From contig JAAVFI010000060.1 of assembly GCA_014800815.1 (NCBI GenBank), positions 1 through 44,722 of the forward strand: a stretch of DNA of 44,722 nt. The letters run 5' to 3'. Origin of the DNA: Bacteroidales bacterium. GTDB taxonomy: Bacteria > Bacteroidota > Bacteroidia > Bacteroidales > Muribaculaceae. The position numbers and the translations under genes were made by a program. The notes beneath the pieces were generated by a model, which was not told the DNA's origin, made no database searches, and was given only the letters and a program-made list of their open reading frames with translations. Positions 12,609 through 17,397 of this stretch are shown here, in pieces. The stretch's first letter is position 1. The number at the start of each line of letters is the position of its first letter.

Positions 12609-13217
12609 TCAAACAGGCTGGTATATAAGCTCTGTCAGGCCGTTTTTCTCGCCGGCGATATAGTTGCCCAGGGGTTCGTCGGCGCGGCACACATCCATGC
12701 AGGTCAGAGCGCTGCCCTTGCGGAAGAAGCGGATGAGAGCGGTATCGTCGGGGCGGAGTTTGCTATTGAGTGTCTCCACTACCCTGAAGCGCAAGTCGCC
12801 GAGATACACCAGTGTGGCGCTGCGGTCGGGCATCCAAGCTATGCGCACTTGGTCGCCGGGGCGCATAGTGGAGGTGTAGAGCAAACCTTTGTTCAGGAAG
12901 TTGCTCTCGGCGTGGCTCTCGCGGAGCACACTCTGCACATACGCGTCCCAATCAATGAATCCCAGGCAGCGTGCGAGAGTGGTGAGTGTGGAGAGGCGCG
13001 GACGTGTTCTCGACGTTGAGTATCCCCATATTCGCTGCAGCGTGGATTCGCTCACCACGTCGCCTGTCTCTTTCCTTATATTGAGAGAAAGCAATTTGAA
13101 GTCGGCCGGAGTCTTGAATGTGCGATAAAATCGCATCTCCAGGTCGTGCTTCATACATTCGATATAGAATAGGTTTTGTTCCATGCTGATAACAGAATTA
13201 CATAATTCGCTTTTCAC
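12609..13217 (-). CDS. Helix-turn-helix-like protein in the kinase operon
   Basis: A protein of up to 202 residues. The start is a GTG at 13217 overlapping the upstream stop (GTGA), or ATG at 13184 (191 residues). The N-terminal half has a helical DNA-binding-like unit (SESTLQRIWGYSTSRTRPRLS, then TLTTLARCLGF) seen in many Bacteroidales HTH proteins. The C-terminal half is a beta-rich domain (RPGDQVRIAWMPDRSATLVYLG) that could be SH3- or OB-like. It is cotranscribed with the Ser/Thr kinase and could be its substrate or effector; this is inferred from position only. GC content returns to the chromosomal level here, so it is outside the AT-rich island. Confidence 0.7.
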   Translation of the reverse strand: MKSELCNSVISMEQNLFYIECMKHDLEMRFYRTFKTPADFKLLSLNIRKETGDVVSESTLQRIWGYSTSRTRPRLSTLTTLARCLGFIDWDAYVQSVLRESHAESNFLNKGLLYTSTMRPGDQVRIAWMPDRSATLVYLGDLRFRVVETLNSKLRPDDTALIRFFRKGSALTCMDVCRADEPLGNYIAGEKNGLTELIYQPV

Positions 13218-13651
13218 TGCCGTATGATATTATAGCTGCTAAATAAATGGCGAAGCCGGTGGTACAATAGTGACTGAGTGCGTGGCGTATAGTATTCGTC
13301 GAGCCCCTTATGATCAAGGACCGAATTTAAAACCGCGCTATACGTGTTGGCATACGAATTTGCAAAGGAGTCGATCTCACGGCTCGAAAATCTGCGTCCC
13401 GAAAAGGTTTGAAGCAGGTCTTGAATATATACCGAGTCGGCCAATTGTATGGCTACCGCATCGGCAGCCTCTTCTGCAGATACATTGCCTCGGCCATATC
13501 TTCGCAGGAGGTCTCCGGCATTGCCGGCAAGCTGCTCGATGTCGGAAACGCTCGGAGGCGGGTCCGCAACAGTCTTTTCATGCTGATTTACATATGTTTC
13601 AGCACTTATGCCGGGCAATAAACGGGGGGGGGGTATTTGATTGACTATCAA
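13214..13651 (-). CDS. Out-of-frame outer domain of the Ser/Thr kinase
   Basis: An open frame of 145 codons with only a TTG at its 5' end, overlapping the 3' end of the kinase gene in another frame. It crosses the same run of ten C residues. If the run had nine C (or twelve), the kinase frame would continue as NTPPRLLPGISAE into this frame, adding about 136 residues to make a protein of about 441. The segment is helical and polar (for example SVSDIEQLAGNAGDLLRRYG) and would lie outside the inner membrane after the kinase's single membrane helix. In this sequence it is uncoupled and probably not translated, unless by slippage. Its stop overlaps the HTH gene start. Confidence 0.7.
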   Translation of the reverse strand: MIVNQIPPPRLLPGISAETYVNQHEKTVADPPPSVSDIEQLAGNAGDLLRRYGRGNVSAEEAADAVAIQLADSVYIQDLLQTFSGRRFSSREIDSFANSYANTYSAVLNSVLDHKGLDEYYTPRTQSLLYHRLRHLFSSYNIIRQ

Positions 13652-14540
13652 TCGGATAGCAATTCACATCCGAAGTCATATCCTGAAAATCCTCTGCTGC
13701 GGGAGAAGTGCTGCGCGCGAAGCCGAACCACAACCCGACCGCAACGATAAGTATTGCAGCAACTGCCGCGACCTTGCCGAGAAGGCGCATACTGTTGCGC
13801 ATCCGTGCGCTTCTGCTCCACCACCCGAGGGCCTCGGTGGCAGTGGCAAATCGCCCGTGGGTCAACTCTGACGACAACGCCTGTACACGACTCTGCACTG
13901 CTCTATCGTCGACTATTGCGGACATTTCCGCCAAGGTCAGGCCCAGGGCGTAGAGGTCGTCGGTCGGCACGGGGCGCCGTCCGTTCTTTACCTCCTGCTG
14001 ATAGCGGCGTGTGCCTGCAGGGCCTTTAAGAAGAATGTATTCGGGAGAATCCGCGCAGCCGAAATCTATTATCTTGATGCCGCCGGTGCAGGGGTCTACC
14101 ATTATATTATCCGGTTTGATATCTCTGTGCACCACCTCCGCACGGTGTATGCTTTCGAGAGCCTTGAGGACAGCCGTCACCGCCGCCTCGGTCTGCTTTG
14201 CGCCGAGCTTCGGGGTGCGGTAGTCTATCATATTGCGCAGAGAGATGCCCGGGCAATACTCCATTTCGAGGGCCGGAACGCCATTGGGCAAGGTAGACAA
14301 GGACAGCGACCGACACACTCCCGGATGTTCGATGCTGAAGCCGATACAGAACTCCTTATATAGCTGAGCTATGACATGGGAATCTTTGTCAAATCCCGCT
14401 CCGGGGCACTTCAGAACAACCTGACGGCCGAAATGGCGTGCCAGGAAAACCTGAAAGCGGCCCGACTTCGACTCGTAGATCAGGCGCATGGAGGAGAATC
14501 CCAGCTCATCTCTGACAGTAGATAAGGTGGGTGCGCTCAT
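13599..14540 (-). CDS. Membrane Ser/Thr protein kinase (PknB/Hanks type)
   Basis: A 313-residue form read from MSAPTLSTVRDELG; ATG at 14567 (322 residues) is possible, but the promoter at 14577-14584 would leave it almost leaderless. The kinase domain has a Gly/Ser-rich loop (YESKSGRFQ), the catalytic lysine in VVLKC (about residue 44), the catalytic loop VVHRDIKPDN (about 137-146) and the DFG motif IIDFG (about 157-161), so it should be active. A single membrane helix follows at about 252-275 (VAAVAAILIVAVGLWFGF). Only about 38 residues remain after it before the stop, because the reading frame ends just after a C10 tract; the likely outer domain is in another frame. The HTH gene follows. 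Substrate unknown. Confidence 0.9.
   Translation of the reverse strand: MSAPTLSTVRDELGFSSMRLIYESKSGRFQVFLARHFGRQVVLKCPGAGFDKDSHVIAQLYKEFCIGFSIEHPGVCRSLSLSTLPNGVPALEMEYCPGISLRNMIDYRTPKLGAKQTEAAVTAVLKALESIHRAEVVHRDIKPDNIMVDPCTGGIKIIDFGCADSPEYILLKGPAGTRRYQQEVKNGRRPVPTDDLYALGLTLAEMSAIVDDRAVQSRVQALSSELTHGRFATATEALGWWSRSARMRNSMRLLGKVAAVAAILIVAVGLWFGFARSTSPAAEDFQDMTSDVNCYPIDSQSNTPPPFIARHKC
13624..13633. repeat. Homopolymer of ten C (minus strand) in the kinase gene
   Basis: G10 on the plus strand. It lies 25 bp upstream of the kinase stop codon and at the exact point where the outer-domain frame takes over. Runs of this length are classic slipped-strand phase-variation tracts. A sequencing or assembly error in the run is the main alternative. 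Confidence 0.9.
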
Positions 14541-14576
14541 AAATCCTGATTCTGTTTCCAAAGCCATAGTAGCGGA

Positions 14577-14584
14577 CAAAAGTA
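14577..14584 (-). promoter_or_regulatory. -7 box of the kinase operon promoter
   Basis: Minus-strand TACTTTTG, a full consensus match, placing the transcription start near 14570. It is divergent from the LRR gene promoter. Confidence 0.65.
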
Positions 14585-14623: not shown

Positions 14624-14656
14624 TTTGCTGAAACAAAAGAATTTTGATTACCTTTG
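14624..14656 (+). promoter_or_regulatory. Promoter of the large LRR gene
   Basis: TTTG at 14624-14627 and TACCTTTG at 14649-14656, 21 bp apart. The predicted start near 14663 rules out the open-frame start at 14644 and supports the ATG at 14743. Confidence 0.8.
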
Positions 14657-14742
14657 CGGATGAAACCATCCAATGCGAATTATCATTATCCATATACACT
14701 CAAAATCATTATCCTGTGAAGAAATTCTACTTCAACACATCA

Positions 14743-17397
14743 ATGAAAACACGCACTGCCGCCCTGGTTATGGTCTTGGCCGCTCTGCCGTCGCTTTCAG
14801 CTCAGACTTTCAGTGAAGGAATACTCAACTATGAGGTAATTTCCGGAACTAACTGCCGCTTTACGGGGCTATCGGAAAATACCGAAAGTCTTGTCGTACC
14901 CGAAAAAGTGACTTACAACGGCACGACCTATACCGTGACCGAAATCGGGACCAACGCCTGCAAGGACCATGAGGAAATAAAATCGGTAACTATCCCCAAT
15001 ACTGTTACTCTCATCAGTCCCAACGCGTTCTATGCAAACCGCGCCCTCACCGACCTTACGTTAGGCTCGGCGCTTGAGACTATCGACCGCCAGGCTTTCG
15101 ACGTCTGCAATGATCTGACCGTGGTGCGCTGCTATGCTCCCGAGCCTCCCATGGCCAAGCAGATGACCTTTTCAAGCACGGCGCAGTCAAAAGCCACGCT
15201 TTATGTACCCGCCGAATCGGTAGCGAAATATGAGGCCGACTTCTGGGTGTGGGGTTCATTCCGCAAGGTTGAAGCTATTGTAGACAATGTGAGTGAATTT
15301 GAGGTTGACGGTCTCTCGTACAAGGTGACCGAGGGTAACAACGTGACTCTCACCGCTGTAACTTCCACTGCCGCTGACATCTACATTCCCGGCACTGTCA
15401 ACTACGGCGGCACTGCTTTCACCGTCACCGAAATAGGTCAGGCCGTAGGCAAGGACCTCAGCACCCTCGTCACCCTCTCAATTCCTGAAACGGTGGTAAA
15501 TATCGCCGCCAACGCTTTCTACGGCTGCTGGAAGATGACCGACCTTTCGATCGGTTCGGGCGTACTCACTATCGACCGACAGGCCTTCGACGCCTGCAGT
15601 GCCCTTACTACGGTGAAGTGCTACGCAACAGTGCCTCCCGAGTGTAAGAATCTGGTGTTCAGCGCAACGACAACCAATAAAGCCACTCTCCGCGTCCCTG
15701 AGGAATCTATCGCGGCTTATGAAAAAGATGTGATGTGCTGGGGCGACTTCAACACTATCATCGCCCTCGACGGCGACGAGCCTGAGAAGCCCGACCCCGT
15801 AGACCCCGGCAAGCCCGTCGACCCCGAACCCGAACCCGACGGCATCAAGCTCACCGGCATCAGTCCTGCCCGCAACAGCACCCGCAGTTCGCTCTCAGTG
15901 TTCCGCGTAGCATTCGAAATCACTGAGGCTGAGAAGGAAAAGTGCATGATCTTCCCTATCTCGGGCCACACATCGGGCATACGCCTCGAGCGTGAGGGCG
16001 CCGAACCCGTATACGCATCGAGAGTAAGCACCGTCGAAGATTTCCCCGTAACTTCGGTCGACATCACCTTCCCCGTGCAGCGCACCGAGGGTCAGTACAC
16101 TCTCGTTATTCCCGAAGGTTCGATCGGTAAATACCGCTGGAACGACGAAGCTCAGAAAGACGAACTCATCGAAGGCATGGTAAACGCCGAAATCACCGCC
16201 AATTACACCGTTTCGGCCGAGGTTGCCACAATCTTCTCCAACTACGTGCTCCGTCCGCAGTCGGGCAAGAGCCTCGCATCAATCACCGAACTCGATCTCA
16301 CCTTCCCGAGCGCACCCTACGCTCTCGACATCAATAACTCCCTGCCCATTACTCTCTCCAACGGCACTACAGTATATAAAGGTGTGATTGGCGGCTGGGG
16401 CAACGAGCGCCGACTTTCGTTCGACTCCGACACTCAGAGTTACATCACCATAACCGAGCTTGGCAACTGGACTCTCACCATTCCTGAAGGCGTATTCTCT
16501 GCCAACGGCGAGTGCAACCCCGAAATCGTAGCCGAATATACAATCTCCGACGATATCGACTTCGAATACATCTGCAATCCCCTGAACCTCAGCATGGAAG
16601 AGATACCCGAGGCTATGATGGTGACACTCACTATCGAGTTCCCCGACGCAGGCTTTGTGGCATTCGCTCCTGCTTACGATCCCGCACCCGCGTTCACCGT
16701 AAAATATGGCGACGTAGAGCTCCGCCGCGTAAGCAACGCTCTCGTATTACCCGGCTATCAGCCCGTAGTTCAGTCGGGCGGCAACACCCTCGAAATCCGT
16801 GTCAACACCCTGGTACTCACCGAGCCCAACATCCTCACAATCACCGCTGAGAAGGGTGCGTTCACCGTCGACGGTCTCGCCTCACCCGCAATCGACTATG
16901 CTATAAACTACGGTCTCCACAAGCAATACGAATATACCCTCACACCCGCCAAAGACGGCACATACCGCAACCTCTCGAAGTTCACCGTCGGGTTCCCCGA
17001 AGCCAAAGAAGCCGTCTATAACGAAGACGAAGCCTTTATCGTGCTCTTCATGCTCGGCCACTCGTGCACCGACTACACCTGCACACCCGTCGAGGGTGCC
17101 GAATATCCCACATTCGACATCGTATTCGACCCCGCCCCCGACTTCGAAGGTGAGTACTCGTTTACTATCGACGCCCGCACATTCATCCTCGACAAATACT
17201 TCTTCAGCCCCATTGTCACCGGCAAGTACACTCTCGGTGACGACACCGGCGTAGAAGGCGTAAGCATTGAGAATGAAAATGTTACCGTAGTGACTCTCGA
17301 TGGTCGCGTAATTCTCCGCAACGCCGCCCGCGAAGCCCTCTCTACTCTCACTCCCGGCCTCTACATAGTAAACGGCCGCAAGCTCTACATCAAGTAA
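14743..17397 (+). CDS. BspA-type leucine-rich-repeat surface protein with T9SS-like tail
   Basis: An 884-residue secreted protein read from MKTRTAALVMVLAAL, a clear signal peptide ending LSAQ. Two LRR_5/BspA units lie at about residues 20-180 and 185-345 (TVTEIGTNACKDHEE, VTIPNTVTLISPNAF). A Pro/Asp/Glu linker (DPVDPGKPVDPEPEPD) follows, then several beta-rich domains of about 120 residues each. The last 80 residues (TVVTLDGRVILRNA to GLYIVNGRKLYIK) resemble a type A sorting domain for type IX secretion. BspA-type proteins mediate attachment to host proteins, mucin or other cells; the ligand here is unknown. The final 202 bp recur at 23410-23611. Confidence 0.9.
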   Translation: MKTRTAALVMVLAALPSLSAQTFSEGILNYEVISGTNCRFTGLSENTESLVVPEKVTYNGTTYTVTEIGTNACKDHEEIKSVTIPNTVTLISPNAFYANRALTDLTLGSALETIDRQAFDVCNDLTVVRCYAPEPPMAKQMTFSSTAQSKATLYVPAESVAKYEADFWVWGSFRKVEAIVDNVSEFEVDGLSYKVTEGNNVTLTAVTSTAADIYIPGTVNYGGTAFTVTEIGQAVGKDLSTLVTLSIPETVVNIAANAFYGCWKMTDLSIGSGVLTIDRQAFDACSALTTVKCYATVPPECKNLVFSATTTNKATLRVPEESIAAYEKDVMCWGDFNTIIALDGDEPEKPDPVDPGKPVDPEPEPDGIKLTGISPARNSTRSSLSVFRVAFEITEAEKEKCMIFPISGHTSGIRLEREGAEPVYASRVSTVEDFPVTSVDITFPVQRTEGQYTLVIPEGSIGKYRWNDEAQKDELIEGMVNAEITANYTVSAEVATIFSNYVLRPQSGKSLASITELDLTFPSAPYALDINNSLPITLSNGTTVYKGVIGGWGNERRLSFDSDTQSYITITELGNWTLTIPEGVFSANGECNPEIVAEYTISDDIDFEYICNPLNLSMEEIPEAMMVTLTIEFPDAGFVAFAPAYDPAPAFTVKYGDVELRRVSNALVLPGYQPVVQSGGNTLEIRVNTLVLTEPNILTITAEKGAFTVDGLASPAIDYAINYGLHKQYEYTLTPAKDGTYRNLSKFTVGFPEAKEAVYNEDEAFIVLFMLGHSCTDYTCTPVEGAEYPTFDIVFDPAPDFEGEYSFTIDARTFILDKYFFSPIVTGKYTLGDDTGVEGVSIENENVTVVTLDGRVILRNAAREALSTLTPGLYIVNGRKLYIK
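17194..17395 (+). repeat. Direct repeat, left copy (3' end of LRR gene)
   Basis: This 202-bp segment encodes the last 67 residues of the LRR protein. It recurs in direct orientation at 23410-23611 with about five mismatches. The two copies bracket the fimbrial operon. Confidence 0.95.

Follow-up and report, generated by a model that had tools for sequence, protein, structure and literature searches.

The window, by which we mean the whole stretch of 44,722 nucleotides that was analysed, carries on its minus strand a protein kinase gene that lies in two reading frames. The break falls at a run of ten C, and a shorter gene follows, referred to here as the partner gene. A homologous locus exists in a genus mate, G034. 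In reading direction, the features are these:

14577..14584, minus strand: TAnnTTTG box, TACTTTTG, likely the -7 element of the kinase promoter (read from the sequence)
13599..14567, minus strand: kinase frame as assembled, from ATG 14567 to its stop, 322 aa; the start matches G034
13920..14444, minus strand: protein kinase domain (Pfam PF00069, E 3.7e-23)
13716..13772, minus strand: single membrane helix (hydropathy 2.53 over 19 residues)
13624-13633, minus strand: C10 tract, site of the frame break (read from the sequence)
13214..13663, minus strand: outer-domain frame including its stop codon, without an ATG, 135 codons past the tract
12609..13184, minus strand: partner gene, 191 aa, 70% identical to the gene after the G034 kinase

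The Pfam match and the catalytic columns K, E, D, K, N and D, all retained, give the first frame the fold and the residues of a Ser/Thr (Hanks-type) kinase. The window kinase keeps 17 of the 19 columns that show at least 85% conservation, and one of the two changes is common to G034; one conserved P has become E. The start of the gene had been put at 14540 by an earlier, sequence-only reading of this DNA. It is probably ATG 14567 instead, because the alignment with the G034 protein begins there and a TAnnTTTG box, which we take to be the Bacteroidales -7 promoter consensus, lies just upstream. Beside the kinase, on the opposite strand, lies a large gene of the BspA-type leucine-rich repeat kind (window 14644-17397; LRR_5, E 1.3e-22).

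How do the two frames meet? The sequence-only reading had described a C10 run at 13624-13633 with the kinase-frame stop about 25 bp on, and a second frame, lacking an ATG, across the same run. Both descriptions stand. The stop codon of the kinase frame occupies 13599-13601, 25 bp beyond the tract; the tract begins about 80 bases after the membrane helix, and the kinase frame closes 7 codons beyond it. The outer frame runs through the C10. Its open stretch, 13663 to 13217, spans 149 codons between stops, of which 135 lie past the tract, and its stop codon is at 13214-13216. The calculation that nine or twelve C would join the frames into about 441 residues is also right, the frames being one base apart, and the joined protein has 450 residues if counted from the likelier ATG. 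Past the tract one frame is long (135 codons) and the other two remain open for 7 and 5 codons. This pattern, together with a homolog in one frame, is that of a contingency locus, where tract length sets the frame that is read on. Another mark of such a locus, a long G/C run inside a reading frame, is present too: across all 44,722 bases the next-longest G/C run is 6 (two cases). The kinase domain and the helix precede the tract, and this early part would be made in all states, as in C-terminal phase variation. Just before the C run in reading direction lies a perfect small inverted repeat (GATTGA-TAG-TCAATC on the minus strand, window 13639-13653), which may be due to chance.

The outer frame had further been said to end exactly at the start of an 'HTH' gene. 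Its stop does overlap a GTG at 13217; the start in agreement with G034 lies some 30 nt downstream, at ATG 13184. The HTH label finds no backing in a significant family match: Pfam gives none for the partner gene, and NCBIfam gives only weak response-regulator matches, with E values of 0.012 for the gene in the window and 0.0035 for that in G034. A back-translated scan of relatives with the partner gene matched G034's own contig only.

An uninterrupted kinase-outer domain homolog was sought and found in G034, where kinase, helix and outer domain form a single frame of 423 aa followed by the same next gene, with no G/C run of 7 or more at the kinase locus. Because G034 has one frame, no tract and the same next gene, the two frames of the window are read as one gene broken at the tract. 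With the kinase and outer pieces used as separate BLASTP queries, the kinase part is 58% identical to G034 over 261 residues and the outer part is 40% identical to the C-terminal part of the G034 kinase over 129 residues; in this alignment the switch between the window frames coincides with the tract. Is the outer frame a protein at all? Between window and G034, the proportions of mismatches at the three codon positions are 0.47/0.32/0.70 in the outer part (121 codons), 0.33/0.23/0.63 in the kinase (252 codons) and 0.20/0.17/0.49 in the partner gene (191 codons), and when the outer part is read in shifted frames the pattern is gone. This pattern argues that the outer frame has been selected as protein since the window and G034 split, not necessarily in the present strain.

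The outer domain is rare. A DNA search with the locus across 49 genomes of the genus matched a kinase, outside its own genome, only in G034 (the third match of that search is one of 31 bases in G046). Searched as protein against 98 other relatives, the outer frame had a match in G034 only, and a two-row profile of the domain found it in its own genome and G034 only, 2 of 397 family genomes. A back-translated scan of relatives with the outer domain gave no match. No Pfam family was found in the outer part, in the window or in G034, and comparison with solved structures gave no convincing match (best E 0.074).

The kinase itself belongs to a family with a recurrent gene neighbourhood. A profile of the partner gene finds 103 places, distributed over 63 of the 147 family genomes, and 100 of these places were fetched (the window's own place and one each in G165 and G207 were omitted). 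A kinase of the same family lies on the stretch in 83 of the 100, and within 250 bp in 74, an adjacency share that may lean high, the profile having been built from kinase-adjacent genes. The arrangement varies: the kinase comes first in 20 of the 74 pairs, the partner in 24, and 30 are on opposite strands. All but one of the adjacent kinases (73) are intact. The exception, L174 in G175 (L174:1105-3007), is a helix-ended family kinase disrupted by an IS4/5-type transposase gene, which interrupts its frame, and was not counted as intact. Beyond the helix, 70 of the intact kinases continue for 111-358 residues and three for 1-13. In a set of 82 kinases (the 73, the window, G034 and further genus loci), the frame observed in the window, with 38 residues past the helix, is the sole intermediate length, and none of the other 81 holds an intragenic G/C run of 7 or more. 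By single linkage, all 82 kinase cores fall into one homology cluster. The outer parts of at least 60 aa (n=73) fall into 28 homology clusters. Three family kinases (L186:1385-3007, L187:1346-2941 and L197:3662-5278) have an outer part of BspA-type leucine-rich repeats (LRR_5, E 3.4e-46 to 6.1e-42); in these, runs of G9, G9 and G7, respectively, lie in the gap between the kinase and the partner gene, at a distance of 20 to 40 bases upstream of the kinase frame.

Helix-ended kinases occur in this genome as well, as a paralog of the window kinase. In the tree, the eight helix-ended kinases, which include one from this genome, group in a single clade (100/99) that is close to the pair of window and G034 but separate from it. 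A further candidate, L076, was dropped since its frame runs off the contig end, although it still stands among the tree's nine 'tail' rows. A change of tract length would toggle between two architectures, each of which exists as a stable gene. The intact homolog, the coding selection and the family architecture all support the view of a single kinase gene, split by the tract between its helix and its outer domain.

The host genome (2.77 Mb) holds six G/C runs of 9 or more, with lengths of 16, 13, 10, 10, 10 and 9, all inside contigs and with ordinary flanks. Apart from the tract of the window, three are intergenic, one is at a CotH gene and one ends an apparent decayed gene. At the CotH gene (L032:1761-3400, contig C16), a C10 lies between a signal-peptide-like start, judged by eye, and a CotH frame of 529 codons (E 1.2e-18); it is a possible second switch in this genome. 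The G13 tract on contig C3 was rejected for that role because it ends the apparently decayed gene, which has no Pfam match and which we presume to be 'sulfatase-like'. Both frame-broken genes of the genome, kinase and CotH, read as off in the assembly, as would also be expected of decayed genes.

A wider set of loci, which is not a random sample and includes the window and CotH, has 87 distinct tracts of 8 or more; 27 of them resembled junk or lay close to the end of a locus and were omitted, which left 60 to classify. Nine of the 60 were flagged as frame-broken, the window and CotH among them. In genus mates, reading by eye upheld the break at L081, where a signal-peptide-like frame is split from a GH31 frame (E 3.9e-48), and at L042; it led us to drop L082 and L085 and was ambiguous for L036, while L052 and L121 stand as flagged candidates. 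At L048, an acyltransferase (E 6.3e-22) that was not flagged, an upstream ATG is out of register by eye, and we count it as a break. In G010, a CHASE2-like sensor protein (L042:1915-3008; E 0.0021, below the Pfam cut-off) is broken at a G8 inside its sensor part, which may be a further case of an input domain that meets a tract. A tract need not break a gene, since at L044 and L045 a C10 lies within an unbroken frame. Counting G10 windows across the genus was rejected as a measure of slippage loci: in several genomes, G020, G021, G026, G027 and G037 among them, many runs sit at contig ends or in G/C-rich junk, the pattern of two-colour sequencing artefacts.

What would such a tract do in a signalling gene? 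We consider it reasonably probable that the kinase undergoes C-terminal phase variation by slippage in the C tract. The gene would encode a Ser/Thr kinase whose kinase domain is cytoplasmic and is joined through one membrane helix to a C-terminal outer domain, and the C10 would fall in the linker just outside the membrane, where strand slippage would shift the reading frame. One length class would let translation continue through the outer domain; in the other two it would end 5 or 7 codons after the C run, leaving a helix-anchored kinase with a short outer tail. Because the kinase domain would be made either way, slippage should affect the signal input to the kinase and not whether the kinase is present. 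A functional short form is quite conceivable, with its input altered or absent, as helix-ended members of the family exist as stable genes. That the outer part is a sensor is suggested by its position and by the diversity of outer parts in the family. In the off state, ribosomes would stop 385 bases short of the end of the outer frame, which adjoins the partner gene; translation of the partner may fall as a result, and may in this way be coupled to the frame state. Slippage and its reversibility, like topology, sensing and coupling, are steps that we infer; reversible toggling fits the length of the tract, its place and the other frame-broken genes of the genome and genus. Against a switch stand the confinement of the outer domain to two of the 397 family genomes, the lack of a tract in its sole homolog and the lack of intragenic G/C runs of 7 or more in the other 81 kinases. 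A more far-reaching proposal is that slippage converts a one-pass sensor kinase into a helix-anchored one that has no outer domain, an architecture stable in sister genes, and simultaneously uncouples the partner regulator, a stochastic rewiring of input, not of surface antigens; its setting would be a Bacteroidales lineage in which G/C-tract promoters are numerous and several genes are frame-broken, and we offer it tentatively, as rather doubtful. If phase variation of the kinase is real, a clonal population would contain cells having and cells missing one input channel, and the short and long forms that occur naturally in the kinase/partner-gene family allow a comparison.

Could the outer domain simply have been lost in this strain, in a frameshifted gene on its way to decay? 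The branch of the window kinase is longer than that of G034 (0.51 vs 0.23), which, with the replaced conserved P, could reflect relaxed constraint, and the genome has at least one tract that ends an apparent decayed gene. On the other side, no second lesion was found in either window frame; substitutions in the outer part show a coding pattern, and the sole lesion coincides with the window's sole long homopolymer. We hold decay to be unlikely. An assembly error, with the tract length miscalled, the gene intact and the tract an inert oddity, seems to us slightly harder to accept and quite unlikely. Homopolymers of such length are error-prone in assemblies, poly-G junk is frequent in several genomes of the genus and G034 has the intact form; yet a count that is one base off would still leave a long intragenic C run of slippage-prone length, and this run is internal to its contig, between flanks of ordinary coding sequence.

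The same C run might also act without any change in the DNA, by transcriptional slippage or ribosomal frameshifting that sets a ratio of short to long kinase. Both frames are kept, and RNA polymerase can slip on long homopolymers. Set against this, the genes of the other 81 kinases, with no G/C run of 7 or more, give no sign of a conserved frameshift site, and DNA slippage is expected at such a length anyway, which makes this explanation the least probable of those weighed here. Phase variation by DNA slippage remains the reading we prefer.

Homopolymer phase variation is of a known kind; most descriptions concern surface structures, and most come from pathogens. Sensor-kinase genes are among its targets: in bvgS of Bordetella and flgS of Campylobacter, homopolymer frameshifts abolish the kinase, whereas the frameshift in the window would leave the kinase domain in place. 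PASTA Ser/Thr kinases (PknB/Stk1) have the same order of kinase, helix and outer part, and NCBIfam NF033483 matches the window kinase domain at E 6.9e-22, far under the family cut-off; unlike in PknB/Stk1, the outer part in the window and G034 is without PASTA repeats by Pfam. The nearest parallels come from Helicobacter. In H. canadensis, according to the available part of the report, eight 3' G tracts that vary in length in reads give C-terminal phase variation, with a C-terminal part of 0-104 residues beyond the tract, and HCAN_0660 could merge two frames (PMC2823697). The window shares with these a late homopolymer whose length sets the C-terminus while the first part is always made; it differs in having a C tract, known from an assembly, in place of G tracts with read-level variation, and a 135-codon outer domain behind the helix of a kinase. 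In H. pylori, the sensor histidine kinase gene arsS has a C run close to its 3' end (nt 1,261 of 1,347), where a change from (C)15 to 14 causes an early stop; the authors, in the part of the article available, saw no support for this change as the cause of a biofilm phenotype (PMC12838425). Here too a signalling kinase has a late C run; in contrast to arsS, where a histidine kinase has its C-terminal end inside the gene, the window has a Ser/Thr kinase with a whole outer domain past the tract. The arsS tract is not mentioned in the available part of PMC2715451.

New here would be the combination of a whole Ser/Thr kinase outer domain past the tract, a kinase that is kept and a Bacteroidales host, homopolymer switching itself being known. 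Among the open-access papers listed, none describes a tract switch of a kinase outer domain in Bacteroidales in its title or the start of its abstract. Ornithobacterium hominis is a member of the Bacteroidota. The phylum is not free of the phase-variation idea, because a putative mechanism for adhesin genes has been put forward in that species, as far as the available part of the article goes (PMC13183296).

The genus also has a recurrent promoter-like class of tract, in which G8 or longer is followed by TAATTT and then, at about 19 nt from the tract, by TAnnTTTG, the -7 box; TTAAC often lies just upstream. One example is in the host genome (C13:4880-4913, L031). The 49 genus genomes have 91 matches, spread over 33 of them, and a reversed control has 6. 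At the order level there are 39 matches against 12 in the control across 148 genomes, and 12 of the 39 fall in the three genomes of the host's family, where the control has none. The shorter motif G8-TAWTT matches 79 times in the genus and 10 times in the reversed control. Read on the plus strand, the tract of the window (G10-TATTTG) resembles the promoter-like class, but a TAnnTTTG is missing at the usual distance; an antisense promoter was rejected as the main reading, and we treat the resemblance as an oddity. On the G strand, TA follows the tract in five of the six host-genome cases, and AATAAAC-G10-TATTT is identical in the window (13617-13638, coding) and at an intergenic site of the same genome (C12:4534-4555, L030).
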